This document shows positions 10,766 through 63,588 of a stretch of DNA of 64,000 nt, one piece after another (within the stretch, counting starts at the first letter, position 1; every line of letters begins with the position of its first letter). The stretch comes from Bacillus zhangzhouensis (GTDB lineage: Bacteria > Bacillota > Bacilli > Bacillales > Bacillaceae): the NCBI GenBank assembly GCA_025809375.1, contig CP099514.1, positions 1,116,001 to 1,180,000 of the forward strand, written 5' to 3'. A program made the translations under genes and the position numbers. The notes under the pieces were generated by a model that saw nothing but the letters and a program-made list of their open reading frames with translations, ran no database searches and was not told the origin of the DNA.

Positions 10766-10908
10766 CAGATGGTTGACAAAGGGCTAAAATGATGTTGATT
10801 TTAGCCCTTTGTCTTCTTTTCAGCGTGATAAAAATTCTTTGCAGCCCTAGGAATGACGAGCACCAGCGCAGGACTTGACAACGAATGCGATGATTTGTCA
10901 GCGCGCTG
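10766..10908 (-). repeat. Dispersed structured repeat, copy 1 (inverted orientation)
   Basis: 143 bases whose reverse complement aligns with the copies at 22.2, 36.5 and 63.4 kb. In element orientation it begins CAGCGCG, carries CCTAGGGCTGCAAAG and TATCACGCTGAAAAG, and ends in the perfect 16-bp hairpin GACAAAGGGCTAAAAT/ATTTTAGCCCTTTGTC and CAACCATCTG. Both ends read CAG..CTG. It lies between convergent ykoM and ykoW, inside their shared terminator, and codes for nothing convincing. MITE-like or a mobile RNA-structure element; no autonomous partner is seen here. Confidence 0.85.
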
Positions 10909-10924
10909 ATAATTGGCACCTTTT
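10909..10924 (+). repeat. Right direct repeat flanking repeat-element copy 1
   Basis: Exact copy of 10750-10765; it ends one base before the ykoW stop codon and retains the longer T run. Confidence 0.85.
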
Positions 10925-13345
10925 TTATGTGTCCAGCTGCGCCGGATAGGCGATGAATTTTTCAATATCGCGTGCTGGCAGGGGCTTGGCGTAATAAAAC
11001 CCTTGCAGGTCGTCACATCCCTGGGCAGATAATAGCTGGGCCTGCGCAAACGTTTCAACACCTTCTGCTATGACTTCGAGAGATAATTGATGTCCCATCG
11101 CTATAATAGCCCCTGTAATCTGTTCAGACTTTGAATCACTCAATATTTCCTCAATAAAGGATTTATCAATTTTCAGTCGATGAATAGGTAAATCCTTTAA
11201 ATAGCTTAAAGAGCTGTGCCCTGTACCGAAATCATCAATACTAATGTGGACGCCAAGCTGTTTTAGCGACGTTAACACTTGTTTTGATTGCTTGATATTG
11301 TCCATTGTCATACTTTCTGTGACTTCAAGCTCCAAGAACGACGGTTTCAGATCGTATTTTTTCAGTGTCAGCTTGATCAAATCAATTAAGTCTTCAGAAT
11401 GGAATTGTTTCGCAGATAAATTGACAGCCACGGGGATTTTTAGCCCATCGTCATACCACATTTTTGCCTGCTTGGCAGCTGTATCTATGACCCATCTGCC
11501 AATATCAATGATCAGACCCGATTCCTCTGCCAGCTCAATAAAAGACTCAGGTGACTTTAAAGAACCATCTGGTGTCTTCATTCTTAAAAGTGCTTCAACC
11601 CCAGTCATCTTTCTTGTTTTGGCACTGACTTGCGGCTGATAGTGAAGGACAAATTGCTCTCTTTGAATGGCATCCCTCAGTTCCAGCTCCCGGTTTAATC
11701 TGTCCTCACTCAATCTTTCCATGGATTCGGTAAAGAATTCATATCGGCTTTGCTTATGTTTTTTGGATACATACATGGCCATATCGGCTTTTCTCATCAG
11801 CTCCATCCCGTCTTTGCCATTTTGCGGAGAGATGGCGATCCCGATGCTGATCGATGTAATGAGCTGATGGTTCTGGATGAAAAAAGGACGTTCAAATTGA
11901 TGGATGATATTTTTAGAAAATTGTTCGATTTTATGTGTATCATGACCTATATATGGAAAGATCATTAAAAATTCATCGCCGCCAATTCTTGCGATAAAGC
12001 CATTGTCTGGTAAACATTGCGTCAGTCTGTTTGCGGCAGCTTTCAGCAATAAGTCTCCGATGTTATGACCAAGTGCATCATTAATAATTTTAAAACGATT
12101 TAAGTCAAGAAACAGAACCGCTGTTGATGTTTTTGACTTTTCTTGAGCGGAGAGAACATCATTTAAATGATTGATGCCGTGTCGGCGGTTAGGAAGCTCT
12201 GTTAATGCATCATAATGTGCCATCACATGAATTTCTTTTTCTGCAATCCGCTGCTGCGTTAAATCTTTTAAAACAAGATAAATGCTGTCGAGTGAATTGT
12301 TCACATGAACAGGTATGTAAGTGACATGATAATAATAAAAACGATCTGCTGTTTTCAGTTCTGCTTCGCGTGTAATGGCTTTCTTTGACTGATAACTAAA
12401 TTCCTCCCACATCTCAGTCGGCATCACGTATTGACTGACATCATCACCGATCCAAGAATTGCACATTTTCAAGATTTGTTTACCTGAGTCATTCGCAGAA
12501 AGCACCTTTCGATCGACAGATAACACGATAATGCCGTCTATATTATGTTTGATAAGCGATTGAAACCGCTGTTCATTTTCTTTCAGTTGATCTACCTGCG
12601 TCATGATCCGGTGATCAATATAGGCACCAAAAATCATCAGCGTTTGGACAATAAGTGTCATCAATCCGATGAAAATCGACAGACTCAATGACGACATTTC
12701 AAGAAAACCACCTGCAGCGGCCTGTCCATTTGAATGAGAAAACTTGGTAGAGGCAGCCATACCAGTATAATGCATGCCTGCTATAGCACCCCCCATCAAC
12801 ATTGAACCAATACCCTTTAAAAGATAATTCGCCCGTTTACTTTTCGTGCAGTCAACACGAAAGAAGAGCTTCATTGAGAAGTAGGAAGTAATGGTAGCAA
12901 TGAAAAACGAAAGAAAGAAGAGGGCTGGATCATAGCTGATTGAGACATTGGCCATTGATTCCATTGCAAGATAATGCATGCTGCAAATAGCCGAACCCAT
13001 GGTGATTGAACTAATAAGCAGCCGTCTTCTAGAGAGCTGCTTTTGAATGCATATTGAAAAAGTGATCAAGGCTCCGATAAATGAGGCCAAAATCGATAAA
13101 ATCAGTAAGGATATATCATATGTAATGTCAACGCGCATTTGAAATGCTATCATGCCAATAAAATGCATCGACCATATCCCCATTCCCATGATCATTGCAC
13201 CTATGAGCAGCCAGACCTTTTTCTTTGCACCTTTTGTATGTGCTGCCCTGCTGACTATATGAAGAGCTGAGTAGGAGGCGACAGCGGCAACAGCGATTGA
13301 CAGAAAGACAAGCCATCCATTGTAGCTTCCTGTTAAATGGGTCAT
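10925..13345 (-). CDS. ykoW: MHYT-PAS-GGDEF-EAL c-di-GMP turnover protein YkoW (DgcW)
   Basis: About 806 residues. The N-terminal MHYT sensor has seven membrane helices with the paired motifs MHFIGM, MHYLAM and MHYTGM, which are proposed metal or gas ligands. It is followed by a PAS domain (about 265-370), a GGDEF domain with the intact ARIGGDEFLM motif (about residue 465) and an EAL domain with GVEALLRM, DDFGTGHSSL and EGVE motifs. Both catalytic signatures look intact, so it could make and break c-di-GMP; in B. subtilis DgcW is a diguanylate cyclase. I start at the ATG at 13345, nine bases after AGGAGG, which gives the family length (800). Convergent with ykoM across the repeat element. Confidence 0.92.
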   Translation of the reverse strand: MTHLTGSYNGWLVFLSIAVAAVASYSALHIVSRAAHTKGAKKKVWLLIGAMIMGMGIWSMHFIGMIAFQMRVDITYDISLLILSILASFIGALITFSICIQKQLSRRRLLISSITMGSAICSMHYLAMESMANVSISYDPALFFLSFFIATITSYFSMKLFFRVDCTKSKRANYLLKGIGSMLMGGAIAGMHYTGMAASTKFSHSNGQAAAGGFLEMSSLSLSIFIGLMTLIVQTLMIFGAYIDHRIMTQVDQLKENEQRFQSLIKHNIDGIIVLSVDRKVLSANDSGKQILKMCNSWIGDDVSQYVMPTEMWEEFSYQSKKAITREAELKTADRFYYYHVTYIPVHVNNSLDSIYLVLKDLTQQRIAEKEIHVMAHYDALTELPNRRHGINHLNDVLSAQEKSKTSTAVLFLDLNRFKIINDALGHNIGDLLLKAAANRLTQCLPDNGFIARIGGDEFLMIFPYIGHDTHKIEQFSKNIIHQFERPFFIQNHQLITSISIGIAISPQNGKDGMELMRKADMAMYVSKKHKQSRYEFFTESMERLSEDRLNRELELRDAIQREQFVLHYQPQVSAKTRKMTGVEALLRMKTPDGSLKSPESFIELAEESGLIIDIGRWVIDTAAKQAKMWYDDGLKIPVAVNLSAKQFHSEDLIDLIKLTLKKYDLKPSFLELEVTESMTMDNIKQSKQVLTSLKQLGVHISIDDFGTGHSSLSYLKDLPIHRLKIDKSFIEEILSDSKSEQITGAIIAMGHQLSLEVIAEGVETFAQAQLLSAQGCDDLQGFYYAKPLPARDIEKFIAYPAQLDT

Positions 13346-13590
13346 GTAAGAAAACCTCCTGTATCTTAAAACAGACATATACTTAATATATCGGATCAAA
13401 TGGCTTCTATGTTCACCTTTCCTTCACTTAAATATAACAATCAACGTTTTTTTCACCTTCTTTTATAGTAAAATCAAATTTAATGTAAAAAAACGACGAA
13501 AAGTGAATCGTTTCTTCGGTTTTATTCGTTTAATATATGGTGTGATTCTATAAGAGATAGAATCAGTCAAATGATTATGTGTGAAAGGGA

Positions 13591-14202
13591 TTGATAAACA
13601 TCGAAGATTTTATGATTTCTTTAGCTGATGCCTTTAAGAACTTGTCATACTTTGGCATCTTCCTCGCATTGTGCATTGAATTTGTACCTGCTGAAGTGGT
13701 TTTGCCTCTTGCGGGTTACTGGGTCTCAGAAGGGGACATGGCCTTTATCGGTGTTGTAGCGGCCGGCTCCATTGGCGGCGTGGCTGGCCCTTTGACCTTG
13801 TACTGGTTAGGACGTTACGGCGGCAGACCTTTTTTAAATAAATATGGAAAGTACTTTTTTATAAAACCTGAGTCGCTTGATAAATCGGATGCTTTCTTTG
13901 AAAAGCATGGCGGATTCGTCGCATTCAGCGGCCGGTTTATACCAGGAGTCAGAACGCTTATTTCCATCCCGTGCGGTATTGCCAAGATGAATGTGTGGGT
14001 TTTTTGTCTGTATACGTTTTTGGCAATTACACCAATTACCTTTGTGTATGTGTATCTTGGGTTTATGCTCGGAGAGAACTGGAAAGAGGTTGGCACCATG
14101 TTAGATCCATATCTTTTACCAATTGGGATCGGTGTTGTGTTATTGTTTGTTCTCTACTTATTTCTAAAACGAAAAAGAAAAACTCAAACGCCAACTGCCT
14201 AA
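13591..14202 (+). CDS. ykoX: DedA-family membrane protein YkoX
   Basis: About 203 residues, multi-pass. The DedA/SNARE-associated signature is visible: an E in IEFVPAEVVLPLAGYW, the GRYGGRPFLNKYGKYF loop, and FEKHGGFVAFSGRFIPGVRTLISIPCG with the conserved Arg and Gly residues. DedA proteins are membrane transporters, some of which recycle undecaprenyl phosphate or flip lipids; the exact substrate here is unknown. The start is uncertain: TTG 13591 directly abuts AAAGGGA, while ATG 13612 lacks a Shine-Dalgarno. The Mn riboswitch for ykoY follows. Confidence 0.88.
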   Translation: MINIEDFMISLADAFKNLSYFGIFLALCIEFVPAEVVLPLAGYWVSEGDMAFIGVVAAGSIGGVAGPLTLYWLGRYGGRPFLNKYGKYFFIKPESLDKSDAFFEKHGGFVAFSGRFIPGVRTLISIPCGIAKMNVWVFCLYTFLAITPITFVYVYLGFMLGENWKEVGTMLDPYLLPIGIGVVLLFVLYLFLKRKRKTQTPTA

Positions 14203-14286
14203 TCAATGGATCGAAGCGAAAGTCACCTGTTGACAATCCAGTGTCTATTGATTATGATATAAGTAATCTAAATATTCTAAATCCCG

Positions 14287-14400
14287 CCAAAGGGGAGTAG
14301 CGTCCGGTTGTTACCGGAAACAAAGTCGTCATTACATGGACTGATGTTCATCGGCTTTGTTGGCATGATTCTACATATCACATGTCTAGCAAGACCTTTG
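14287..14400 (+). promoter_or_regulatory. yybP-ykoY manganese riboswitch
   Basis: The P1 stem pairs CAAAGG with CCTTTG around the conserved AAAGGGGAGTAGCG start and the GCAAGACC end, with two internal hairpins. The 3' half of P1 is also the 5' arm of the following terminator, so Mn2+-stabilised aptamer prevents termination and turns ykoY on. Confidence 0.92.
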
Positions 14401-14426
14401 CCATTACAGGCAAAGGTCTTTTTTGC
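14391..14426 (+). terminator. Expression-platform terminator of the Mn riboswitch
   Basis: AAGACCTTTGCC/GGCAAAGGTCTT stem with loop ATTACA and a T run; it shares CCTTTG with the aptamer P1. Confidence 0.9.
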
Positions 14427-14481
14427 ATTCATAAGCCTTTGTCTGCTGTGGGACAATAGATAAAAACAAGGAGGAATGATG

Positions 14482-15273
14482 ATGGATGCAGCCATTATTT
14501 TAGAGTACGGGTGGGTTCTGCTTGTACTGATTGGATTAGAAGGGATTTTAGCAGCTGATAACGCGCTGGTCATGGCCGTGATGGTCAAACACCTTCCTGA
14601 AAAACAAAGAAAAAAGGCACTGTTTTACGGACTTGCAGGTGCGTTTGTCATGCGATTTGGTTCTCTGTTTCTTATTTCGTTTTTAGTAGATGTATGGCAA
14701 GTTCAAGCCATTGGCGCAATTTATCTTCTTTATATTTCCATCCACCATATTTTAAAATCGCACGTATTTAAGAAAAAGGAAACTGAAACAAATGTGAAAC
14801 AAAGCGGCTTCTGGGCAACTGTCGTGAAAGTAGAGCTTGCCGACATTGCTTTTGCCGTAGATTCCATTTTAGCAGCCGTCGCTTTAGCTGTGACACTGCC
14901 GAAAACAAGTCTTCCGCAAATCGGTGGACTCGATGGCGGTCAATTTATTGTTATTCTTTTAGGCGGTATTATTGGTCTTGTTATTATGCGATTTGCGGCA
15001 ACGGTCTTTGTGAAACTGCTCAAAACAAGACCTAGCCTAGAAACAGCAGCATTTGTCATTGTTGGATGGGTTGGCGTGAAGCTCACGCTTTATACACTGT
15101 CACATCCAGCTATTGGGGTCATATCGTCTCATTTTATCCATTCAGCATTATGGAAAGTGATTTTCTGGACAGTGCTTCTCGCAATTGCAGCATTTGGCTG
15201 GTTTTTATCAAATCCATCAAGAAAAGGCGGACAGGAAAACGAGGAGAAACAAGAGGCACGCCTAGAAGAGTAG
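14482..15273 (+). CDS. meeY: TerC-family manganese exporter YkoY (MeeY)
   Basis: About 263 residues, 7-8 membrane helices, TerC family. Acidic residues in helices (LEGILAADNALVMAVMV and VELADIAFAVDSILAAV) form the conserved metal path. In B. subtilis, MeeY (YkoY) exports Mn2+ and supports metalation of secreted enzymes. I chose the third of three adjacent ATGs (14482), 7 bases after AAGGAGG. Control by the Mn riboswitch upstream agrees with the role. The C-terminal tail is charged (GGQENEEKQEARLEE). Confidence 0.93.
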   Translation: MDAAIILEYGWVLLVLIGLEGILAADNALVMAVMVKHLPEKQRKKALFYGLAGAFVMRFGSLFLISFLVDVWQVQAIGAIYLLYISIHHILKSHVFKKKETETNVKQSGFWATVVKVELADIAFAVDSILAAVALAVTLPKTSLPQIGGLDGGQFIVILLGGIIGLVIMRFAATVFVKLLKTRPSLETAAFVIVGWVGVKLTLYTLSHPAIGVISSHFIHSALWKVIFWTVLLAIAAFGWFLSNPSRKGGQENEEKQEARLEE

Positions 15274-15322
15274 TTTTTTTGAAAGAAATATCATTTCATT
15301 TTCATAACACGTATATGACAAA

Positions 15323-15350
15323 TAAGGGGGAGATACCCCCTTATTTCTTT
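15323..15350 (+). terminator. Terminator of ykoY overlapping the sigI promoter
   Basis: TAAGGGGG/CCCCCTTA stem with loop AGATA followed by TTTCTTT. The 3' arm also contains ACCCCC, the -35 element expected for SigI. Confidence 0.7.
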
Positions 15351-15363
15351 GCTTTTAGACGAA
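15335..15363 (+). promoter_or_regulatory. Candidate SigI-dependent autoregulatory promoter
   Basis: ACCCCC (15335-15340) and CGAA (15360-15363), the -35 and -10 elements reported for SigI promoters in B. subtilis, are separated by 19 bases and lie about 125 bases upstream of sigI. The -35 sits in the 3' arm of the ykoY terminator. The spacing has not been checked against known examples. Confidence 0.6.
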
Positions 15364-15488
15364 AGATTGTAAAGTAGATGATGACATACATGTCATAATT
15401 GAGTAACAGGAAATGAATTCCTCATTTCTTCCTTTGCGCTTCCCTCATAAATTAGCTATCATAAATGAGTAATATAGGGAGAACTGAG

Positions 15489-16244
15489 GTGAAACCATTG
15501 CTTAGCCTTTTGTTTAAAAAAGGAAAGAAAAAGCAAACATTAGAGCAGTCGGCTATCAGTGTTCAACAAGGTGATATCGAACTGCAAAATGCATTAATAG
15601 AGCAATACAAACCATTTGTCGCTAAGACGGTTTCATCCGTTTGTAAACGATATATAGATGAAAAAGATGATGAATTCAGCATAGGCTTAATTGCCTTTAA
15701 TGAAGCGATAGAAAAATACTCTGCCGAAAAAGGAAACTCACTGCTTGCTTTTGCAGAATTAATTATTAAAAGAAAAGTGATTGACTATATTCGAAAAGAA
15801 GCGAGAAATGCGCCAACGGTTCAAATGGACCTGCAAGAAAGTGAGAATGGCGAATACTCTCAAAGCATGATTGAAGCAGAGCTCTCTGCAAATGAATATA
15901 GGCGTTTAATTGAACAAGAACATAGAAGAGAAGAGATTGAACATTTTAAAGAACGATTGAAAGTATACGGTCTCACGTTTCAAGAGCTGCTTGAGCATTC
16001 ACCAAAGCATGCAGATGCCAGGCAGAATGCCATTAAAGTAGCCCATACTCTCGTTGAACACGATGAGCTGAGAACCATTTTATTTCAGAAAAAACAATTG
16101 CCGGTCAAACAGCTGGAAAAGCTAGTAGTAGTCAGCCGCAAAACGATTGAGAGAAATAGAAAATATATCATTGCGATGGCGATCATTATGACAGGTGATT
16201 ATGTGTATTTGAAAGATTACCTTAAAGGGGTGCTTAATTCATGA
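15489..16244 (+). CDS. sigI: Alternative sigma factor SigI
   Basis: Sigma-70-like factor of 251 residues for heat and cell-wall stress genes (in B. subtilis lytE, mreBH, bcrC). The conserved core reads PFVAKTVSSVCKRYIDEKDDEFSIGLIAFNEAIEKY and FAELIIKRKVIDYIRKEARN (region 2). The C-terminal DNA-binding part contains KQLPVKQLEKLVVVSRKTIERNRKYI. I chose GTG 15489: GGGAGA is 6 bases upstream and the product then starts MKPLLSLLF and is 251 residues long, as in B. subtilis. The last bases overlap rsgI (ATGA), so the two are translationally coupled. Confidence 0.94.
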   Translation: MKPLLSLLFKKGKKKQTLEQSAISVQQGDIELQNALIEQYKPFVAKTVSSVCKRYIDEKDDEFSIGLIAFNEAIEKYSAEKGNSLLAFAELIIKRKVIDYIRKEARNAPTVQMDLQESENGEYSQSMIEAELSANEYRRLIEQEHRREEIEHFKERLKVYGLTFQELLEHSPKHADARQNAIKVAHTLVEHDELRTILFQKKQLPVKQLEKLVVVSRKTIERNRKYIIAMAIIMTGDYVYLKDYLKGVLNS

Positions 16245-17422: not shown

Positions 17423-17423
17423 A

Positions 17424-17450
17424 AAAACGCCAGAATAGTTCCGGCGTATT
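17424..17450 (-). terminator. Terminator between rsgI and sspD
   Basis: ACGCC..GGCGT stem; the minus strand has seven T residues after it, so it mainly serves sspD and more weakly rsgI. Confidence 0.7.
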
Positions 17451-17461
17451 TCACCATGTCG

Positions 17462-17656
17462 TTATTTAGATTGACTGCCCATTTGTGATTGAGCCTGTTG
17501 AACGAGTCTTTTTGTGATTTCACCGCCAACAGAACCGTTCGCACGTGAGACTGTATCTGAACCGAGAGTGACGCCAAATTCTTGAGCGATCTCGTATTTA
17601 AATTGATCTAAAGCTTGTTCTACTCCTGGAACAAGGAGTTGATTTCGATTTGCCAT
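17462..17656 (-). CDS. sspD: Alpha/beta-type small acid-soluble spore protein SspD
   Basis: 64-residue SASP that coats and protects DNA in the dormant spore. The family signatures are present: a first motif in [17 protein letters not shown] with the GPR protease cleavage context (YEIAQEFG), and the second, [17 protein letters not shown] chose the ATG at 17656, just downstream of AAGGAGGAGG, which gives the B. subtilis length. Expression is expected in the forespore under SigG; I did not identify that promoter. Confidence 0.94.
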
Positions 17657-17743
17657 GTTCATCCTCCTCCTTTCAACCTCATGTTTGTCGCGCCTTCTTA
17701 TTTTGAAAAAAAAGCCGTACATTTATGCTGGCAATTGCTGTAC

Positions 17744-17774
17744 AAAAAAACCGAGGTGATGAAGGTCACCTCGG
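17744..17774 (-). terminator. Terminator of ykrK
   Basis: CCGAGGTGA/TCACCTCGG stem followed on the minus strand by seven T residues. Confidence 0.88.
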
Positions 17775-17782
17775 GTTCTTAT

Positions 17783-21949: not shown

Positions 21950-22115
21950 GAAGCATGTGAAGAGCAAAGAGATGAAGGAGCATAAAAAGCCAATGGACCC
22001 AGATATTTTAGAAGAGGAATTTGGCAGTGAGCTTGGGGATATCAACAGCAGCAAATGGATTGATACGTTGATGAAACCAAAGAAAGATGGTGGATGTAAG
22101 CAGAATAAGAAATAG
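21942..22115 (+). CDS. Small charged protein of 57 residues
   Basis: GTG start at 21942, 7 bases after AAGGAGGGG, overlapping the end of the previous gene by 8 bases. The product has a Lys/Glu-rich start (KKHVKSKEMKEHKKP), an acidic middle (DILEEEFGSELGDIN) and SSKWIDTLMKPKK. The coupled start, strong ribosome binding site and coherent composition support a real gene. Family not recognised. Confidence 0.65.
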   Translation: MTKKHVKSKEMKEHKKPMDPDILEEEFGSELGDINSSKWIDTLMKPKKDGGCKQNKK

Positions 22116-22118
22116 AAA

Positions 22119-22141
22119 AAACAATCCAATAAGGATCGTTT
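22119..22141 (+). repeat. Left terminator copy flanking repeat-element copy 2
   Basis: AAACAATCC AATA AGGATCGTTT, the terminator hairpin of the small gene. It recurs at 22264-22286 with two mismatches, so the whole hairpin is duplicated around the element. Confidence 0.8.
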
Positions 22142-22263
22142 CAGCGTGCACGAATGACCAATTCGCTCCTCGCCAGTGCTCGCCATTTCTAGGGCTGCAA
22201 AAGGTTTTCTATCACGCTGAAAAGAAAGACAAAGGGCTAAAATCAATATCATTTTAGCCCTTT
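22142..22263 (+). repeat. Dispersed structured repeat, copy 2 (3' truncated)
   Basis: 122 bases beginning CAGCGTG, with CTAGGGCTGCAAAAGG, TATCACGCTGAAAAG and the hairpin GACAAAGGGCTAAAAT/ATTTTAGCCCTTT. It lacks the final GTCAACAATCTG seen in copies 3 and 4. It lies between the convergent small gene and ykrP, bracketed by two copies of a terminator hairpin. Confidence 0.85.
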
Positions 22264-22286
22264 AAACGATCCAATAAGGATTGTTT
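22264..22286 (+). repeat. Right terminator copy flanking repeat-element copy 2
   Basis: AAACGATCC AATA AGGATTGTTT followed by more T residues. It still forms a terminator and ends 2 bases from the ykrP stop codon. Confidence 0.8.
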
Positions 22287-28890: not shown

Positions 28891-29051
28891 TCTCTTATCT
28901 CTCAGCACATACGTCTGATGGAATTAGCACCGTGCCCTATAAGACAATTGTCTTGGCGCGTTACTTGCTGCGCCCCACTTCACAGTGGTATTAACGGTCG
29001 GTTGCTGTTGGGGTCAAAAGGCCAAATCCCTCGCCCAACTCTCGATAAGAG
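28891..29051 (-). promoter_or_regulatory. SAM-I (S-box) riboswitch of mtnKA
   Basis: Minus strand leader with P1 CTCTTATC/GATAAGAG, the GAGGGATTTGGCC and GACCCCAACAGCAACC core and the GGTGCTAATTCC segment, ending GCTGAGAGATAAGAG. It also contains an enlarged P3/P4 region relative to the mtnW copy. High SAM stops transcription at the terminator. Confidence 0.94.
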
Positions 29052-30405: not shown

Positions 30406-30450
30406 AGAAATGGTGCGATAATTCAGGCAATATTTAAGAAAATTGAATAT

Positions 30451-30550
30451 TCTTATCAAGAGTAGGCAGAGGGACTAGCCCAATGAAGCCCGGCAACCGA
30501 CTTCCATGAAGCACGGTGCTAATTCTTGCAGCAAGCGCTGAGAGATAAGA
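30451..30550 (+). promoter_or_regulatory. SAM-I (S-box) riboswitch of mtnWXBD
   Basis: TCTTATCAAGAG..GAGAGATAAGA P1 stem, GAGGGACTAGCCCAATGAAG and CCGGCAACC core, and GGTGCTAATTC. Textbook SAM-I aptamer. Confidence 0.96.
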
Positions 30551-30571
30551 TTCGGATGAATGACACGAAAC

Positions 30572-36477: not shown

Positions 36478-36502
36478 AAAGGAAGCCGCTGGGCTTCCTT
36501 TT
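36478..36502 (+). repeat. Left terminator copy flanking repeat-element copy 3
   Basis: AAAGGAAGCC..GGCTTCCTTTT hairpin after mhqR. A similar, slightly shortened sequence occurs at 36664-36685 on the other side of the element. Confidence 0.75.
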
Positions 36503-36662
36503 CAGCGCGAGGGTGTCAGTCCTGCGTGCCGGTCCTCACGAATGCCAATTCGCTCCGGTACTCATCCTTCCTAGGGCTGCAAAGGATTTCTATCACGCTG
36601 AAGCTGAAAAAGAAGACAAAGGGCTAAAATAGTGATCATTTTAGCCCTTTGTCAACAATCTG
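36503..36662 (+). repeat. Dispersed structured repeat, copy 3
   Basis: 160 bases, CAGCGCG at the 5' end and CAACAATCTG at the 3' end. Contains GGTGTCAGTCCTGCG, CACGAATG..CCAATTCG, CCTAGGGCTGCAAAGG, TATCACGCTGAA and the perfect hairpin GACAAAGGGCTAAAAT/ATTTTAGCCCTTTGTC. It lies between convergent mhqR and motB and is bracketed by two versions of one terminator. Confidence 0.87.
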
Positions 36663-36663
36663 T

Positions 36664-36685
36664 AAAGTAGCCGCTGGCTCCTTTT
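36664..36685 (+). repeat. Right terminator copy flanking repeat-element copy 3
   Basis: AAAGTAGCCGCTGGCTCCTTTT, which matches the left copy apart from small deletions, keeps a T run and ends next to the motB stop codon. Confidence 0.7.
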
Positions 36686-36686
36686 T

Positions 36687-37451
36687 TTATTTCGCTTTTT
36701 TCTCAATCGGTAAAATGAGTACTTCTACACGTCGGTTTTTACTTCTGCCTTCTGCTGTATCGTTTGAGGCAATCGGTTTGAATTCGCCGTAACCTTTTGT
36801 ACTAAAGTTCTCTTGGTCTAGATCGCTGTTTTCAAGAAGAATATTTAAAAAGTTCACAGCACGAATGGCGCTTAAATACCAGTTTGATTGAAATTCTGAA
36901 TTTCTGATCGGTACATTATCTGTATGTCCGCTAATGACAATGTCACGAGCGGGATTAATGACGAGCAGCTTTGAGATTTCTTTTGCTAACGGGACATCCT
37001 GAGGGCGAATAACTGCCCGCCCAGAATCAAAGAAGATGCTGTCCTCAATCGTAATGAGAAGTCCTTCATCCGTAAGTTTTGTTTCGAGCTTGGAACCAAG
37101 TTTTTTATTTGCAATGAATGAATCGACCTGCTTTTTGACCTTTGTGAGAACCGCTTTGTCTCGAGCCTTTGCTCTGGCTTCTTCATCTTCCTCGGCTGCT
37201 TTCTTGACTTGGTTGCTATGTTCAGTTTCTTCCGTGCTCTGCATGCTGGATTGATCCATCACACCAGTACCGCCAGTAAAGACGACATTAAAAGACTTAG
37301 CCATCTGTTCGTACTTTGCCGCATCAATCGAACTTGATGCAAAAAGCACAATGAAGAGGGCGACAAGAAGCGTTAGAAGATCGGCATAAGGAAGCAGCCA
37401 AGACTCGTCTACATGGTCTTCGTGATCATGTTTTTTACGTTTCCTAGCCAT
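36687..37451 (-). CDS. motB: Flagellar stator protein MotB
   Basis: 254 residues. It has one membrane helix (about 22-42) with the proton-carrying Asp in LLPYADLLTLLVALF, a plug and linker, and a C-terminal OmpA-like peptidoglycan-binding domain (about 130-245: IFFDSGRAVIRPQD, ISGHTDNVPI, NRRVEVLI). With MotA it forms the H+-driven stator. The start at 37451 overlaps motA by 8 bases and lies behind AAGAAGGAG. Confidence 0.95.
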   Translation of the reverse strand: MARKRKKHDHEDHVDESWLLPYADLLTLLVALFIVLFASSSIDAAKYEQMAKSFNVVFTGGTGVMDQSSMQSTEETEHSNQVKKAAEEDEEARAKARDKAVLTKVKKQVDSFIANKKLGSKLETKLTDEGLLITIEDSIFFDSGRAVIRPQDVPLAKEISKLLVINPARDIVISGHTDNVPIRNSEFQSNWYLSAIRAVNFLNILLENSDLDQENFSTKGYGEFKPIASNDTAEGRSKNRRVEVLILPIEKKAK

Positions 37452-42009: not shown

Positions 42010-42085
42010 AGAAGGGATAGCCTGCATGAAAAATATGTGGTACACTATCCACTGTGAAAATTGAACAAAAATCCGTGAAGACGGG

Positions 42086-42119
42086 AGAGGTTCTAGCAAA
42101 ACCCTCTATAAAAAACTAA
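42086..42119 (+). promoter_or_regulatory. preQ1-I riboswitch of queCDEF
   Basis: AGAGGTTCTAGC..ACCCTCTATAAAAAACTAA matches the class I preQ1 aptamer almost base for base, including the A-rich tail that forms the pseudoknot. Confidence 0.96.
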
Positions 42120-42124
42120 GGACT

Positions 42125-42160
42125 TGCCGTATCCTTGGATGTGGCATTTTTTATTTTTTA
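42125..42160 (+). terminator. Expression-platform terminator of the preQ1 riboswitch
   Basis: TGCCGTATCC/GGATGTGGCA stem followed by T-rich sequence. Confidence 0.88.
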
Positions 42161-56036: not shown

Positions 56037-56045
56037 TTTTTTATA

Positions 56046-56079: not shown

Positions 56080-56130
56080 ATGATATAATATTGTGGATGT
56101 ATTAATTGTATAAAAAGGAGATTGATAAAA

Positions 56131-56397
56131 ATGGCTCAACAAACATTCAAAGTAACTGCAGATTCTGGGATTCACGCACGTCCTGCAACAGTTCTTGTAC
56201 AAACTGCTAGTAAATATGATGCTGATATCAACTTAGAATATAATGGTAAAACAGTGAACCTGAAATCTATTATGGGTGTAATGTCTCTAGGAATTGCAAA
56301 AGGTGCTACAATCACAATCTCTGCCTCTGGTTCTGATGAAAATGATGCACTTGCTGCGCTTAAAGACACAATGAAAAGTGAAGGCCTAGGCGAGTAA
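56131..56397 (+). CDS. ptsH: Phosphocarrier protein HPr
   Basis: 88 residues. His15 in [11 protein letters not shown] is phosphorylated by PtsI; Ser46 in [13 protein letters not shown] by HprK for CcpA-mediated catabolite control. ATG 56131 behind AAAGGAG. Overlaps ptsI by one base. Confidence 0.98.
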
Positions 56398-58115
56398 TGC
56401 AGCAACTGAAAGGAATCGGTGCTTCAGCAGGTGTTGCGATTGCAAAAGCATATCGTCTGGAAGAACCAGATTTAACAGTTCACCAAAAAGACATCAACAA
56501 TCCAGAGACAGAAGTGAAGCGTTTTGAAGAAGCAATTCATGTTTCTAAACAAGAACTTGAAGCAATTAAAGAACATGCGCTAAAAGAGCTTGGCCAAGAC
56601 AAAGCAGATATCTTTTCTGCCCATCTTCTTGTGTTAAGTGATCCTGAACTGCTCAACCCAGTAAAGGATAAAATCAAATCTGATAAAGTAAATGCTGAAT
56701 TTGCTCTAAAAGAAACAGCGACGATGTTTGTCACAATGTTCGAAGCAATGGACAATGAATACATGAAGGAACGTGCAGCGGATATTCGCGACGTAACAAA
56801 ACGTGTGACTGGACATTTGCTGGGCGTTGACATTCCAAACCCAAGCATGATTTCTGAAGAAGTCATCATCATTGCTGAAGATTTAACACCTTCTGATACT
56901 GCTCAGCTGAACAGACAATTTGTCAAAGGCTTTGCGACAGATATCGGCGGTCGTACTTCTCATTCAGCGATCATGGCAAGATCCATGGAGATTCCAGCAG
57001 TTGTTGGGACAAAAGAAGCAACAAAAACGGTGAAAAACGATGATCTCATCATTGTGGATGGTATTAGCGGAGACGTCATCATTCAGCCTTCTGAAGATGA
57101 AGTGAAAGCGTATCAAAAAAAGCATGGAGACTACTTAGCTCAAAAAGCGGAATGGGCGAAACTTGTTGACCAGCCAACGGTTACAAAAGACGGTGTTCAC
57201 GTAGAGCTAGCTGCAAATATTGGAACACCTGAAGATGTACAAGGTGTACTTGAAAATGGCGGCGAAGCAGTCGGATTGTACCGTACTGAATTTTTATACA
57301 TGGGCAGAGACCAGCTTCCTACAGAAGAAGAACAGTTCGATGCGTATAAAACAGTTTTAGAGAAGATGGAAGGAAAAGCAGTGGTTGTCCGCACACTAGA
57401 TATCGGTGGCGATAAAGAACTTCCTTACTTGCAGCTTCCAAAAGAAATGAACCCGTTCCTTGGCTATAGAGCCATTCGCCTTTGCCTGGAAGAACAGGAG
57501 ATTTTCAGAACACAACTACGCGCCTTACTTCGTGCAAGTACATATGGAAACTTGAAAATCATGTTCCCTATGATTGCGACATTATCAGAATTTAGAGAAG
57601 CAAAAGCCATTTTACTTGAAGAAAAAGAAGCATTGGTTGCCGCTGGTACAGACGTTTCTGATTCCATTGAAATCGGAATGATGGTAGAAATTCCATCAAC
57701 AGCTGTCATTGCAGACCAATTTGCAAAAGAAGTAGATTTCTTCAGTATTGGAACGAATGATTTGATTCAATACACAATGGCTGCTGACCGAATGAACGAA
57801 CGAGTGTCTTATCTTTACCAGCCTTACAACCCAGCAATTTTACGCCTCATTACGCTTGTGATTGAAGCAGCGCATAAAGAGGGTAAATGGGTCGGTATGT
57901 GCGGTGAGATGGCAGGGGATGAAATCGCAATCCCTCTTCTACTTGGATTAGGATTAGACGAATTCTCAATGAGTGCAACATCTATTCTTCCAGCTAGAAC
58001 GCAGCTAAGCAAGCTTTCTAAGGAAGAAGCTGCATCATTTAAAGAGCATATTTTATCACTTAGTACAACAGAAGAAGTTGTTGATTTTGTTAAGAAAACG
58101 TTTCAACAAAACTAA
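56397..58115 (+). CDS. ptsI: PTS enzyme I, PtsI
   Basis: 572 residues. Transfers phosphate from PEP to HPr. Active His in [21 protein letters not shown] (key: GGRTSHSAI). PEP-binding TIM barrel with [29 protein letters not shown] (key: LKIMFPM) and [11 protein letters not shown] with the Cys. The start shares the last A of the ptsH stop. Confidence 0.98.
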
Positions 58116-58123
58116 TTGAATTA

Positions 58124-58155
58124 AAACCAGACGGGAGAGACTGTCTGGTTTTTTT
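58124..58155 (+). terminator. Terminator of ptsHI
   Basis: AAACCAGAC/GTCTGGTTT stem and T run. Confidence 0.9.
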
Positions 58156-58230
58156 GTCGAATTTTATCATAATGAGTCATATTGGGCAGTGAGAAGGGCA
58201 TCCTATAATTAAAAAATGGAGGTGGCCAGA

Positions 58231-58458
58231 TTGCCTTTCTCAAACTATAAACCGGGTGATCAAGTATATGTGATTTATCGAAATCCACATGCTGCAAATG
58301 TAGCACAAATTAAAGAAGCGGAAATTGTTTCACATCCATACAACGAAGAAGAGCTTGCCTTATTTTTACTTGAAACGTATCATCCATTAGCACCTGATGA
58401 TGCTGTTTTTCCAACATATGAAGAAGCAGAAGCTCTTTATCAAGACTTGTTTGAATAA
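58231..58458 (+). CDS. splA: SplA, regulator of spore photoproduct lyase
   Basis: 75 residues, TRAP-like protein that represses splB in B. subtilis. Core YKPGDQVYVIYRNPHAANVAQIKEAEIV (key: VYVIYRNPH) and LALFLLETYHPLAPDDAVF. TTG 58231 lies 5 bases after GGAGGTGG; the earlier ATG is inside that ribosome binding site. Confidence 0.9.
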   Translation: MPFSNYKPGDQVYVIYRNPHAANVAQIKEAEIVSHPYNEEELALFLLETYHPLAPDDAVFPTYEEAEALYQDLFE

Positions 58459-58540
58459 GGGAGATTTTAGAAAGGATAAAAGCCATCCTGTGCGGTTAAA
58501 GTAACGGTAAGAAAACGTTAAAGGTAAGGATGTGCTTAAT

Positions 58541-59569
58541 ATGATCAAACCTTTCGTTCCCCAGCTTGTTTACATTGAACCCCGGGCATTAGAGTACCCG
58601 TTAGGACGAGAGCTGAAGGAAAAGTTCGAGGGTATGGGAATCGAAATAAGAGAAACGACCTCACACAACCAGGTAAGAAATATTCCGGGAAAAAATGACC
58701 TGCAAAAGTATCGTAATGCGAAGTCAACGCTTGTCATTGGTGTGAGAAAGACATTGAAGTTTGACTCGTCTAAACCATCTGCAGAGTATGCGATTCCATT
58801 TGCAACAGGATGTATGGGACATTGTCATTATTGCTATTTGCAAACAACAATGGGAAGTAAGCCGTACATTCGAACGTACGTCAATGTAGAAGAAATATTA
58901 GATCAGGCTGAGCAATACATGAACGAGCGAGCGCCGGATATCACGAGATTTGAAGCATCTTGTACTTCAGACATCGTAGGAATTGACCATTTGACACATA
59001 CACTCAAACGAGCGATTGAATACTTCGGGCAGACCGAGTTAGGAAAACTTCGCTTTGTCACGAAATTCCATCATGTCGATCATCTGTTAGATGCAAAGCA
59101 TAATGGCCGGACAAGATTCCGTTTTAGTGTCAATGCTGATTATGTCATTAAATATTTCGAGCCTGGAACATCACCGCTTGATCAGCGGATTGAAGCGGCT
59201 GTAAAAGTAGCAGAGGCTGGCTATCCTCTAGGCTTTATTATTGCGCCAATCTACATACACGAAGGCTGGCAGGAAGGATATAAAGTTCTATTCGAAAAGC
59301 TCGATGCATCCCTTCCTGAAGATGTGAGAGACGATATCACCTTTGAGATGATTCAGCATCGCTTTACAAAACCAGCAAAGCGTGTGATTCAAAAAAACTA
59401 CCCGAAATCAAAATTAGAATTAGATGAAGAAAAAAGACGATACAAGTGGGGCAGGTATGGGATTGGGAAATATATCTACCAAAAAGATGAGGAACAAGAA
59501 CTGAGAGAGACGTTAGCATTATATATTGATCAGTACTTTCCATCCGCAAAAATTGAATATTTTACTTAA
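58541..59569 (+). CDS. splB: Spore photoproduct lyase SplB
   Basis: Radical SAM DNA repair enzyme reversing the thymine spore photoproduct during germination. 342 residues. The cluster motif is CMGHCHYCYLQ (CX3CX2C), and the catalytic Cys is at about 140 in FEASCTSDIVGID. ATG 58541 is 10 bases after AAGGA and gives the same length as B. subtilis SplB. Confidence 0.96.
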   Translation: MIKPFVPQLVYIEPRALEYPLGRELKEKFEGMGIEIRETTSHNQVRNIPGKNDLQKYRNAKSTLVIGVRKTLKFDSSKPSAEYAIPFATGCMGHCHYCYLQTTMGSKPYIRTYVNVEEILDQAEQYMNERAPDITRFEASCTSDIVGIDHLTHTLKRAIEYFGQTELGKLRFVTKFHHVDHLLDAKHNGRTRFRFSVNADYVIKYFEPGTSPLDQRIEAAVKVAEAGYPLGFIIAPIYIHEGWQEGYKVLFEKLDASLPEDVRDDITFEMIQHRFTKPAKRVIQKNYPKSKLELDEEKRRYKWGRYGIGKYIYQKDEEQELRETLALYIDQYFPSAKIEYFT

Positions 59570-59594
59570 AACAAGCCTTTAAGGCTTGTTTTTT
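59570..59594 (+). terminator. Terminator of splAB
   Basis: AACAAGCC TTTAA GGCTTGTT stem then TTTT. Confidence 0.88.
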
Positions 59595-59620
59595 CTATTT
59601 TAAATGTCCTAGCAACTATT

Positions 59621-59645
59621 GAAAGCAGTACCATTTTGCCGATAT
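59621..59645 (+). promoter_or_regulatory. Candidate SigD promoter of mcpC
   Basis: GCCGATAT at 59638-59645 is a perfect SigD -10. The upstream GAAA is 13 bases away (consensus TAAA at 15), so the -35 is weak. It lies 40 bases before mcpC. Confidence 0.65.
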
Positions 59646-59684
59646 ATAAAATAAGGTATGAAAGTAGGATGTAGGGGTGATGAG

Positions 59685-61646
59685 ATGTTTAAGAAACTTC
59701 AAGTGAGAATAGCTGTTTTCATCTCAGTTATTTTAATTTTAACCGTTGTGGCTGTTCAAGTGGGTTCTAACATAGTATTAACACCACTTATTGAACGAGA
59801 TGCAAAAACCACCGCAGCAGCGACGGCAGAAAACATGAGAGATGTGATTACAGAAAAGCTTGATAATTACAGCAATACAATTTACAAATTGGCAACGAGT
59901 ACAATGACTGAAGAGTTTGCGCAAAAACAAACAAAACAAACATTAGCCTTCGAAAATGATGAGCTAAAAGGCTTGCAGGAGCAAGATGAACTCATTTCAC
60001 TTGCCTATATTGGAACAAGTGACGGTAAAATGTTCGCCTTCCCAGAGTCCGATTTTGGCGAAGGGTATGACCCAACTAAACGAGATTGGTTTATTCAATC
60101 AGCTGAAAAGCCTGACGAAGTTATTTGGACTGATCCATATATTGATAAAGCAACAAATGAAATGGTTGTCTCAGCCGCAAAGGCGATTGTCAGAAACGGA
60201 AAGGTTGTTGGGGTTGCTGCCCTTGATTTAAAACTATCCTCCATTCAATCCTATATAAAGGAACAAAAGATTCCTTATATGGGTACCGCTTTCTTAGTTG
60301 ACAGCAAAGGAACCATTTTAGCACATCCAACAGAGCAAGGAAAAAACATATCAAAAGTAGCTTCTGTGAAAAAAGCGATCGACAATTCAGGTATTGATGA
60401 CAGAAAAAAACTGACGGTCATATCTAAAATCAAAGAAGCTGATTGGACGATTGGTGTCAGCTTTGAGAAAAAGAAACTGCTTTGGATCACAGAACAAATG
60501 AATCAGACAAGCATCATTATTTCCGTGATTGCCATTATTCTTGCGATGATCCTCAGCTTCTTATTAGCAAGAAGTATTACAATGCCAATCAAGCGTCTAA
60601 TAGAGCATGTGCGTAAGGTGGCAGAAGGTGATTTAACCAGCTCGCTTGAAGTGAAGTCCCAAGATGAAATTGGTTTCCTTACGAAAAGCTTCAATCAAAT
60701 GACCGAGGGTATCAAGGAGTTAATTGAAAAAGTGAAAGGGGCTTCAGAGCAAGTTGTGAAATCAACAGATGAAGTGACCCGGATTTCAAATGAGACCTTG
60801 CTGTCGAGCGAACAGATTGCAACAGCCATTCAAGAGGTGGCAACAGGGGCATCTAAGCAAGCATCCGAAGCAGAAACAATTAATGAGAAATCAGACCAAT
60901 TGTATGAGAAAGTGCGCCATATGGGTGAGCTTGCCTCACAAATGCAAACCAACTCAAAATCATCTGAAGATGCTAGCTATAAAGGGCTTGATGCACTTGG
61001 TGTGCTCGTTCAAAAATCAACACAAGCAAGCGAAGAATCGAAAAAGGTAGAGCAAATGCTGCTAGACCTTGAGCATAAAACGAAAAATATTGAAAACGTC
61101 GTAACCGCCATCTCTGAAATCTCTGATCAAACGAATTTACTTGCACTGAATGCAAGCATTGAAGCAGCGAGAGCAGGAGAAAGTGGACGAGGATTTGCTG
61201 TAGTTGCAGAAGAAGTGAGAAAGCTTGCTGAACAATCTGCGCAGTCAACAAAACACATTAGTGAAACCGTCAAACTCATTCAAGATGAATCGAAAAAGGC
61301 GGCGGAAGCGATGACAGCAGCAAGTAAAATGAATGAGGAACAAGGTGTTGCCATCAATGCAACAGGTGAGGCACTCAGCAGCATCACAATGGAAATGCAA
61401 GCACTTGTCGGTTCAATCGATAGCATTCATACACAGATTAATGAAATGACAGAAGAACAGCAGAAGATGAGTGACTCCATTCAAAGCATTGCTGCCATTT
61501 CACAAGAATCTGCTGCCTCAGCTGAAGAAGTGCATGCGTCTACAGATGAACAAGTTCAAGTGTTAGAAAGAACGAAAACCTCGACCGAAATGCTGAACGA
61601 ATCCAGCCAGGCATTGCGTCAGGCGGTTGACCGGTTTAAGCTTTAA
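59685..61646 (+). CDS. mcpC: Methyl-accepting chemotaxis protein McpC
   Basis: 653-residue membrane chemoreceptor. First helix at about 8-30, extracellular dCache sensor (about 35-275, with [13 protein letters not shown] and [22 protein letters not shown]; key: DWFIQS), second helix about 280-302, HAMP ([15 protein letters not shown]), and the signalling coiled coil with hairpin tip [21 protein letters not shown] (key: [18 protein letters not shown]). In B. subtilis, McpC senses many amino acids and PTS sugars. ATG 59685 behind AGGGGTGAT. Confidence 0.93.
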
Positions 61647-61658
61647 TCAAGTGGAAAG

Positions 61659-61688
61659 GAACCTTGCGATGTGAGCAAGGTTCTTTTT
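61659..61688 (+). terminator. Terminator of mcpC
   Basis: GAACCTTGC/GCAAGGTTC stem, TTTTT. Confidence 0.88.
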
Positions 61689-61720
61689 GTATGATAAAAT
61701 AAATTAAAGGAGGTGTTGAC

Positions 61721-62506
61721 ATGGATCTCAATCTAACTGGAAAAAAAGCATTGGTAGCTGCAAGCAGTCAAGGTATTGGAAAAGCGACTGCCTTTGCTCT
61801 AGCAAAAGAAGGAGCAGATGTGATGCTTTCGGGAAGACATGAACAGAGGCTGAAAGAAACAGTTAACGAGCTGTCTCCGCTTGTCAAAGGACAGCTGACT
61901 TATCAAGTATGTGACGTATCTGACGCCAGGCAAATCAAGGCGCTTGTTCAAGCAGCGGCCGGTGATGAGAAGTGTCTAGACATTCTTGTAAACAATACAG
62001 GCGGGCCTAAAACAGGGACGCTTGACACCTTAACAGATGAAGATTGGATCGAATCATTTCAGCTTCATTTACTCAGCTATATTCGATTATTAAAAGAGGC
62101 ATTACCTTATTTGAAAAAACGCGGCGCACGTGTGTTAAATATTGCGTCAATGTCAGTGAAAGAACCGATCCCAGGCTTGATGCTGTCGAATACATTTAGA
62201 CCGGCTATAGCCGGCTGGACAAAAACAGCCGCTCAGGAGCTTGCAAAGGATGGTATTTTGATCAATACGTTAGCACCGGGAAAAATTGAAACAGACCGTG
62301 TTAAACAGCTGGATAAGCACCGTGCACAAGCAGAGAATCGAACAATTGAAGAAATTAAAGCATTGGCTGAACGGGCGATCCCGATTGGCCGTTACGGACA
62401 GCCAGAGGAATTTGCAGCATATGCAGCTTTTCTTTTATCTGAAGCCAATACATATATGACAGGTCAAACACTGATCATTGATGGTGGATTGACAAAGTCT
62501 CTTTAA
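61721..62506 (+). CDS. Short-chain dehydrogenase/reductase-like protein with non-canonical active site
   Basis: 261 residues, SDR fold. The nucleotide motif is ASSQGIGKATA (where classical members have TGxxxGIG), DILVNNTGGP replaces NNAG, and the C-terminus is normal (YMTGQTLIIDGG). The catalytic Tyr-x3-Lys is missing: aligned residues read SNTFRP, i.e. Ser/Leu and Arg in place of Tyr and Lys. It resembles the CDD group of BKR-like SDRs that lack a perfect tetrad. Annotated as 3-oxoacyl-ACP reductase in such genomes, but the real reaction is uncertain. It overlaps no neighbour; ykwC follows after 13 bases in one operon. Confidence 0.85.
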   Translation: MDLNLTGKKALVAASSQGIGKATAFALAKEGADVMLSGRHEQRLKETVNELSPLVKGQLTYQVCDVSDARQIKALVQAAAGDEKCLDILVNNTGGPKTGTLDTLTDEDWIESFQLHLLSYIRLLKEALPYLKKRGARVLNIASMSVKEPIPGLMLSNTFRPAIAGWTKTAAQELAKDGILINTLAPGKIETDRVKQLDKHRAQAENRTIEEIKALAERAIPIGRYGQPEEFAAYAAFLLSEANTYMTGQTLIIDGGLTKSL

Positions 62507-62519
62507 GGAGGAACAAGTG

Positions 62520-63392
62520 ATGGCACAAATCAAAACAGTTGGTTTTATAGGAATCGGTGTCATGGGGCGCAGTATGGCAGGACATTTAATGGATGCAGGC
62601 TATGAAGTTCTCGTGTATACAAGAACGAAAGCAAAAGCAGACGCATTGATTCAAAAAGGGGCATCATGGAAGCCGGCAGTAAAGGAGATTGCAGAAAGTG
62701 CAGATGCTGTCATCACAATGGTGGGATATCCATCGGATGTAGAAGAGGTCTATTTAGGTGAAGACGGGATTGTGGCACATGCCGCGCCTGGTACATATCT
62801 CATTGATATGACGACATCGAAGCCTCAGCTTGCAAAAGAAATTGAGTTGAAAGCGAAGGAAAGAGGTGTATTTGCATTAGATGCGCCTGTATCAGGCGGA
62901 GACATAGGAGCCCAAAATGGCACGCTGGCCATTATGGTCGGCGGAGAAAGGTCAGCCTATGAAGCCTGTCTGCCGCTATTTGAGCAAATGGGTGAAAACA
63001 TTCAATATCAAGGACCGGCAGGGAGCGGCCAGCATACAAAAATGTGTAACCAAATTGCCATCGCAGCGGGGATGATAGGTGTTGCAGAAGCAATGGCCTA
63101 TGCCAAAAAATCAGGGCTTGATCCAGAGCAGGTGCTCAAAAGCATCACAACAGGTGCAGCCGGCAGCTGGTCTTTATCAAACCTTGCACCAAGAATGCTG
63201 AAAGGCGATTTCGAGCCAGGGTTTTATGTGAAGCATTTTATCAAGGATATGGGCATTGCACTTGAAGAAGCAGAGCTTATGGGTGCAGAAATGCCGGGAC
63301 TCTCACTTGCGAAGTCACTTTATGAGAAGCTGAGCGAACAAGGTGAAGAAAACAGCGGGACACAGAGTATCTATAAATTATGGGTCAAATAA
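62520..63392 (+). CDS. ykwC: Beta-hydroxyacid dehydrogenase YkwC
   Basis: 290 residues of the 3-hydroxyisobutyrate/tartronate semialdehyde reductase family. NAD(P)-binding GFIGIGVMGRSMAGHL at the N-terminus, substrate motif DAPVSGGDIGAQNGTLAIMVGG (key: DAPVSGGDIGA), and catalytic Lys in GSGQHTKMCNQI. ATG 62520 is 7 bases after AAGGAGG. The substrate is unknown. Its terminator is next to repeat copy 4. Confidence 0.92.
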   Translation: MAQIKTVGFIGIGVMGRSMAGHLMDAGYEVLVYTRTKAKADALIQKGASWKPAVKEIAESADAVITMVGYPSDVEEVYLGEDGIVAHAAPGTYLIDMTTSKPQLAKEIELKAKERGVFALDAPVSGGDIGAQNGTLAIMVGGERSAYEACLPLFEQMGENIQYQGPAGSGQHTKMCNQIAIAAGMIGVAEAMAYAKKSGLDPEQVLKSITTGAAGSWSLSNLAPRMLKGDFEPGFYVKHFIKDMGIALEEAELMGAEMPGLSLAKSLYEKLSEQGEENSGTQSIYKLWVK

Positions 63393-63395
63393 AAA

Positions 63396-63423
63396 AACTG
63401 CTCCGCCTAGGTGGAACAGTTTG
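63396..63423 (+). terminator. Terminator of ykwC, left flank of repeat copy 4
   Basis: AAACTGCTCC..GGAACAGTTT hairpin; its T run is interrupted after three T residues by the repeat element (TTT then GCAGCGTG). Confidence 0.75.
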
Positions 63424-63588
63424 CAGCGTGTAAACAAGCCCTCGCACTCGGTGTCAGTCCTCTGCGCTGGTGCTCACGAATGTCCAATTCGCTCCGCGCC
63501 AGCCTAGGGCTGCAAAGGTTTTCTATCACGCTGAAAAGAAGACAAAGGGCTAAAATCAACATCATTTTAGCCCTTTGTCAACAATCTG
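63424..63588 (+). repeat. Dispersed structured repeat, copy 4 (longest)
   Basis: 165 bases: CAGCGTG at the 5' end; AAGCCCT pairing with AGGGCTG; GGTGTCAGTCCTCTGCGCTGG; CACGAATGTCCAATTCG; CTAGGGCTGCAAAGG; TATCACGCTGAAAAGAAG; the perfect hairpin GACAAAGGGCTAAAAT/ATTTTAGCCCTTTGTC; and CAACAATCTG at the 3' end. Between convergent ykwC and ykwD. The right flank (AGGTTTTTTT) keeps only the end of a terminator, so the duplication is degenerate here. Confidence 0.87.

Follow-up and report, generated by a model that had tools for sequence, protein, structure and literature searches.

A stretch of 64,000 nucleotides from Bacillus zhangzhouensis (assembly GCA_025809375.1, contig CP099514.1, positions 1,116,001 to 1,180,000 of the forward strand; hereafter the window) contains four copies of a structured repeat, interpreted here as a putative miniature inverted-repeat transposable element (MITE). 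A first-pass annotation had described the four copies as one family, and the family is real: a covariance model built for this study (R1; 29 training copies, 41 base pairs) recovers all of them, with small corrections to their coordinates. The match to copy 4 arises by construction, as the training set included this copy but not copies 1-3. Missed by that annotation were the position of the copies within terminators, the duplication of the terminator hairpins and the transposase family involved. The features in the window are as follows.

10740..10765, minus strand: right direct repeat of copy 1 and the remainder of an intact terminator hairpin, read from the sequence
10766..10908, minus strand: MITE copy 1, 143 bp, internally shortened (R1 score 125.3 bits)
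10909..10924, minus strand: left direct repeat of copy 1, comprising the target terminator's 5' arm and its loop (AAAAGGTGCCAATTAT)
22119..22141, plus strand: left terminator hairpin of copy 2 (AAACAATCCAATAAGGATCGTTT), read directly
22142..22263, plus strand: MITE copy 2, bounds set by eye, with an internal deletion and a truncated right end (R1 63.9 bits over 22101-22273)
22264..22286, plus strand: right terminator hairpin of copy 2 (AAACGATCCAATAAGGATTGTTT), then a T run, read directly
36479..36502, plus strand: left terminator hairpin of copy 3 (AAGGAAGCCGCTGGGCTTCCTTTT), diverged from the right one, read directly
36503..36662, plus strand: MITE copy 3, part of the left interior missing (R1 107.7 bits)
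36663..36689, plus strand: right terminator hairpin of copy 3, diverged, with a T run, read directly
63395..63422, plus strand: left terminator hairpin of copy 4, a terminator-like stem
63424..63588, plus strand: MITE copy 4, 165 bp, both ends intact (R1 165.2 bits); orthologous sites are both empty and occupied
63541..63579, plus strand: right-end hairpin of copy 4, 16 pairs, from fold and covariation (helix 6)

The direct repeats that flank copy 1 (locus L029) are identical at 16 of 16 positions, and copy 2 has lost about 13 bp at its right end. Copy 4 (locus L001) yielded no direct repeat in our test; this genome shows no right duplicate of its terminator hairpin, whereas three orthologous occupied sites (L223, L224 and L225) have one. 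The outer arm of its right-end hairpin includes part of the right inverted repeat. Sequence elements first listed as common to the four copies are less uniform than was claimed. Only copies 3 and 4 contain the exact block CTAGGGCTGCAAAGG, with copy 1 ending in ..AAAGAA and copy 2 in ..AAAAGG; the same two copies contain CAACAATCTG without change, which reads CAACCATCTG in copy 1 and is absent from copy 2; and the 16-bp terminal hairpin is complete in every copy except copy 2, where it is shortened.

Size and distribution of the family

The prediction that four copies in one window imply a large genomic family holds. Searching the 3.28-Mb genome with R1 gave 77 rows, corresponding to 54 distinct places at E <= 7.2e-6 when counted by hand with antisense and overlapping rows dropped (the E-values are rough), and 39 of the 54 score at least 60 bits. 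Two further weak places lie near E 1e-4, and the weaker places may be remnants or bare hairpins. A blastn search of the same genome with copy 4, in which 40 of 76 candidates were scored, returned 70 rows, of which 40 are primary matches and the other 30 come from the end hairpin matching itself in antisense. The single motif CTAGGGCTGCAAAG, allowing up to three mismatches, is weaker evidence for a family, with eight matches against a shuffle mean of 4.6.

The full-length element is about 176 bp long, and forms with internal deletions, lacking the inner arm, extend down to about 142 bp. No transposase gene lies inside: among 40 non-redundant copies of at least 140 bp, 39 measure 142-188 bp and one 235 bp, which is too short to hold one.

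The family is spread through the genus Bacillus. It is present in 39 of 44 genomes of the genus (33 at E <= 1e-30 and six weakly), with up to 19 candidates scored per genome. In a sample across the order, matches occur in nine of 299 genomes, six within the genus and three outside it with pieces of at most 39 bp; two candidates were scored per genome, thus absence outside Bacillus is unproven. One conserved core pattern was found in the named species B. pumilus, B. stratosphericus, B. australimaris, B. zhangzhouensis, B. inaquosorum, B. spizizenii, B. tequilensis, B. swezeyi, B. haynesii, B. paralicheniformis and B. glycinifermentans, together with two Bacillus sp., which we take to represent the pumilus, subtilis and licheniformis groups. 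The earlier reference to the B. pumilus group is therefore apt yet too narrow, as the family also occurs in members of the other two groups. Phages gave no match to the element. Three sequences labelled as Stutzerimonas or Klebsiella plasmids (NZ_CP078511.1, NZ_CP078512.1 and CP063894.1) carry the Bacillus MITE, and these may be mislabelled Bacillus contigs.

Target hairpins and their duplication

To compare insertion sites, we assembled 78 non-redundant copies with both ends from this genome and its relatives; fragments were omitted, and window copies 2 (ends missing) and 3 lie outside the set. Direct repeats at a score of at least 9 flank 49 of the 78 copies, whereas randomly paired flanks gave none in each of 20 rounds. 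The repeats span a whole hairpin or one of its arms, and the hairpin is mostly a rho-independent terminator. They are 12-32 bp long (median 25), directly adjoin the element in 43 of 49 cases and are perfect in 22; in 46 the hairpin dyad is no more than 2 bp away from the centre of the repeat. The repeat starts with A and ends with T in 36 of 49, and an A-rich head or a T-rich tail is present in 47. According to a crude caller of open reading frames, a gene 3' end lies on at least one side of 37 of 39 copies in this genome. By the same caller, 19 of the 39 lie between convergent genes, 17 between tandem and two between divergent genes, with one undecided, and a called frame overlaps the element in six.

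Empty and occupied sites were compared at two places: empty sites hold one terminator and occupied sites two. At the site of locus L004 (17 loci), the B. zhangzhouensis genome alone among those measured carries the MITE; 13 others have a single terminator and three are unmeasured. One of these three, in genome G050, has an IS1182 element inserted in this terminator and flanked by a 27-bp duplication, and in G052 the two flank matches overlap by 25 bp, which is the length of the duplication. At the site of window copy 4 (30 loci), five are occupied, including our own, two hold decayed remnants, 16 hold a single terminator, two have other contents (in one case a different single hairpin) and five are unmeasured. 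In seven of the 16 single-terminator loci (L230, L231 and L233-L237) the terminator resembles the occupied one, and the other nine are more distant, with other sequence. The check on empty sites that had been proposed for this family thus found them in related genomes.

Insertion sequences (ISs) of the IS1182 family behave alike in these genomes. IS1182 copies with both ends show a duplication in 25 of 27 end pairs, 10-31 bp long. Two of the pairs span a MITE plus an IS (the 1,745-bp L137, with a repeat, and L151, without one), and leaving them aside gives 24 of 25. The transposase is broken in some of these copies, and the repeat of 10 bp, at L150, does not look hairpin-like. All ten copies in the B. 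zhangzhouensis genome are flanked by duplications, of 19-25 bp. Insertions are also stacked: an IS1182 element lies inside a MITE hairpin at L066, and a MITE and an IS share one terminator at L137 and L065.

Related behaviour has been described in staphylococci. IS1272 and TnSha1, both of the IS1182 family, target hairpins, terminators among them, with no sequence consensus (PMC4923244, PMC5678879), and a palindromic target for IS1182 is attributed in both papers to Siguier et al. IS1272 reportedly deletes the hairpin or takes its place, and no duplication results (PMC4923244, PMC5678879); Fig 13 of PMC5678879 draws duplication of the whole hairpin as an alternative, pathway b. As the transposase family and the hairpin targets are the same, insertion of the MITE by hairpin replacement has to be considered. 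We judge it very improbable, because at both compared sites, and in 49 of 78 copies, the hairpin persists and is doubled, so that the loss of the hairpin without duplication, typical of IS1272, is not what is found for the Bacillus MITE. Replacement is contradicted for the copies that bear repeats; among those without repeats, window copy 4 is the only one compared with empty sites. The Bacillus copies provide dozens of natural whole-hairpin duplications, with an empty-site comparison at two sites, to set beside the theoretical pathway of Wan et al. (2017), and they do so in species amenable to assays.

IS1182-family ends and a proposed mode of insertion

The ends of the MITE, CAGCGTGTAGACAAA and CAGATTGTTGACAAA, are imperfect inverted repeats with the pattern CAGnnTGTnGACAAA, which matches the ends of IS1182-family elements in this and related genomes (end-to-end matches were counted by eye). 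The suggestion to look for a transposase whose terminal repeats begin with CAG was well placed, as the inverted repeats of the IS1182-family elements in these genomes start in this way. An intact second type of IS1182 in G016 and G050 has the ends CAGCTTGTAGACAAA and CAGACCGTAGACAAA, which agree with those of the MITE at 14/15 and 12/15 positions, and a degraded relative in G053 has the end CAGCGTGTAGACAAA, identical to the MITE left end (15/15). Remnants of this second type were found in addition to the intact elements. Transposases matching NF033551 (IS1182) occur in 34 of 41 genomes, B. zhangzhouensis included, and exceed the cut-off in 16. The family has a named member in this group of bacteria, ISBpu1 of B. 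pumilus (PMC7820076). Two hybrid remnants join the two kinds of element: at L070 a MITE piece runs into an IS left end, and at L153 a MITE-like left end is fused to IS1182 transposase coding sequence. Compared with IS1182, the MITE shares the inverted-repeat pattern, the hairpins at both termini, the hairpin targets and the duplication; it differs in its length of about 176 bp and in having no transposase gene, transposase coding sequence being confined to the hybrid remnants.

Group IIC introns and IS200/IS605 elements also use hairpin-related targets, and on this ground the repeat could be a reduced group IIC intron or a REP-like IS200/IS605 element directed at terminators. There is next to no chance that this is correct: the repeat has no Rfam group II match, its inverted-repeat ends are common to IS1182, and it is accompanied by long target duplications, which neither class is known to make.

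Which IS1182 element would move the MITE is a closer question. The B. zhangzhouensis genome has nine full-length IS1182 transposases of identical score (E 5.3e-142; one at G000:C1:742296 and eight more) and a broken tenth copy of the same type; the DNA of these copies differs at a few positions near the left end. The equal scores suggest recent activity. These resident elements, with the ends CAGGCTGTCGAGAAA and CAGATTGTAGAGAAA, could themselves be the source of mobility instead of the type whose ends contain GACAAA. They use the same target and make the same duplication, and their right end agrees with that of the MITE at 13/15 positions. However, their left end agrees at only 11/15 positions, against 15/15 or 14/15 for the GACAAA type, and we consider this option plausible and yet the less probable of the two.

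Taken together, we put a probability of roughly 0.87 on the reading that the repeats are a MITE mobilised by an IS1182-family transposase, which would duplicate target hairpins by insertion. The ends, the target, the duplication centred on the dyad, the empty sites and the like behaviour of the IS1182 copies are observed; the step from these to mobilisation is drawn from sequence comparison. The initial proposal of a non-autonomous mobile element with strong RNA structure agrees with this and gains support from copy number, empty sites and transposase ends.

We envisage the following course. An IS1182-family transposase, of the DDE class, would bind the imperfect inverted ends (CAGnnTGTnGACAAA) and move the MITE. 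The ends would be joined to the target at two symmetric points flanking a palindrome, in most cases that of a rho-independent terminator, and on both strands the join would usually fall immediately ahead of an A. Repair of the gaps would then duplicate the whole interval from one join to the other, as a rule the hairpin (12-32 bp), and the resulting order would be hairpin, MITE, hairpin, T run. For most DDE transposases the duplicated target is short and of fixed length, the stagger between the two joins being normally fixed. A variable stagger that is nonetheless centred on a palindrome is most easily explained if the target is extruded as a cruciform, so that both strands are presented at the junction: the joining points would meet at the four-way junction whatever the length of the arms. 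Such a course corresponds to pathway b of the model in PMC5678879. The lengths found here, 12-32 bp for the MITE and 10-31 bp for IS1182, nearly always centred on a palindrome, would thus point to recognition of DNA shape. It is likely that insertion would come at low cost, as a terminator survives downstream, and that every insertion would supply another hairpin for the next one. This suggests how some 40-50 intergenic insertions could be tolerated by one bacterium with little burden.

Several observations weigh against this interpretation. Among the loci fetched from 44 genomes there is no intact IS1182 element with both ends closely matching the MITE, the intact IS of the B. zhangzhouensis genome has GAGAAA in place of GACAAA, and the MITE-bearing genomes G023, G046, G056 and G012 gave no match to the IS1182 query. 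Among the 78 copies, 29 fall below the repeat score; some of these (L101, L114 and L122) visibly have both hairpins with insertions or deletions, and others have none. A few repeats cover one arm only (L014, L029), and at L024 the repeat is 7 bp long, below the score. Finally, the length of the repeat had been expected to match the folded span of its hairpin; this was not supported, as the two did not correlate (r = 0.24, p = 0.09). The joins would therefore not lie exactly at the foot of the stem, and the cruciform step is unproven.

Some parts of this picture are already known, namely IS1182-linked MITEs in archaea and hairpin targeting by IS1182-family elements in staphylococci. The former are relatives of ISMac2 in Methanosarcina acetivorans, 160 and 169 bp long, with table entries of 26/4 and 25/0 that we take as inverted and direct repeat sizes (PMC3852290); they are similar in size to the Bacillus MITE and likewise tied to IS1182, in an archaeal host. 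Our search of the literature on IS1182 targets and on Bacillus MITEs and repeats, which covered few subscription papers, found neither a Bacillus MITE of this kind nor a demonstrated hairpin duplication. The literature searched likewise contained no sign of whole-hairpin duplication shown in Bacillus, of a MITE spread through the genus or of its RNA cargo. For the '190-bp element' of B. subtilis, no usable literature was found, and the excerpt of PMC2885750 does not describe it.

Fold, conserved interior and Bacillaceae-1 RNA

The element is strongly structured. Copy 4 folds more stably than its shuffles on both strands (z -8.2 on one, -6.1 on the other). For covariation, 79 copies were reduced to 40 (at least 140 bp, below 93% identity), of which 29 were aligned; the 11 dropped were mostly short or aberrant. 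In the named structure 94.9% of cells pair, compared with 89.1% in shuffles and 31.6-46.5% when the structure is slid along the alignment. Twelve pairs are changed on both sides (6.4 in shuffles; reached in 1 of 500), and so are 90 cells (30.5 in shuffles; reached in 0 of 500), although these shuffles ignore relatedness and the resulting numbers are not probabilities. Eight of the 12 pairs lie in the right-end hairpin and three in the inner stem. Counting further pair types does not set the alignment above shuffles (267 of 500), and RNAalifold alone gives a left half that differs in part from the named structure. Outside the counted alignment, a short variant at L155 (from 2930, in G043) has a CAGCTTG/CAAGCT outer stem and a GAGC/GCTC end hairpin, and its changes are compensatory.

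Parts of the interior are conserved as well. Between two sequence types of 12 and 17 copies, the blocks GTGCTCACGAA, CTCG.CCTTCCTA and CCTCGCATTCGTTGTCAG are 0.91-0.99 identical, compared with 0.70-0.81 in other stretches of the interior, 0.53 in the loop of the right hairpin and 0.30 in the apical loop. Mobility of a MITE requires its ends only. Conservation of the interior therefore indicates either that it has a job or that the two types have exchanged copies.

None of the four window copies reaches the gathering score of an Rfam family, Bacillaceae-1 (RF01690) included. A longer form of the MITE in related genomes does carry Bacillaceae-1 at the apical loop, directly seen in L151 (322-388, 64.2 bits) and L303 (1501-1567). 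By coordinates, among the matches listed, 10 of 30 RF01690 rows in the four genomes compared, out of eight, fall between two MITE halves: 6 of 16 in G020, 3 of 5 in G021, 1 of 7 in G012 and 0 of 2 in G004. This gives an orphan RNA family a mobile-element context.

These features could be read differently, as a conserved regulatory or structural RNA selected at gene 3' ends, with its repeats and mobility being old or incidental. The conserved blocks, the covarying stems and the Bacillaceae-1 motif of the long variant would all fit such an RNA. Counter to this, the positions are not conserved, as all 13 relatives measured at the L004 site lack an insertion there and the copy 4 site varies, and duplicated target sites are the mark of insertion; we regard this explanation as improbable. 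A combined view is speculative and of low probability: Bacillus IS1182 transposases would recognise an extruded hairpin pair and join both ends at its four-way junction, with the DNA fold instead of a fixed stagger setting the duplication length; the interior of the MITE would be under selection, and the element would carry its Bacillaceae-1 cargo to gene 3' ends and so wire many unrelated messenger RNAs to one RNA-binding regulator. PMC4333381 reports that the CsrA-binding motif is matched by Bacillaceae-1 in reverse complement, and we take the link to CsrA as a lead only.

Other copies of Bacillaceae-1 lie just before 16S rRNA genes, adjoining the 5' end of the rRNA at L284, L285, L289, L293, L294, L296, L299 and L301. 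Five copies in the B. zhangzhouensis genome share one score among the matches listed; L305 holds a tandem array, and L306 and L307 have copies beside sequences that look tRNA-like by eye. The window also contains six riboswitches (830-1021, 6771-6935, 14280-14447, 28893-29050, 30450-30551 and 42081-42125), of the cobalamin, M-box, yybP-ykoY, SAM (two) and preQ1 kinds.

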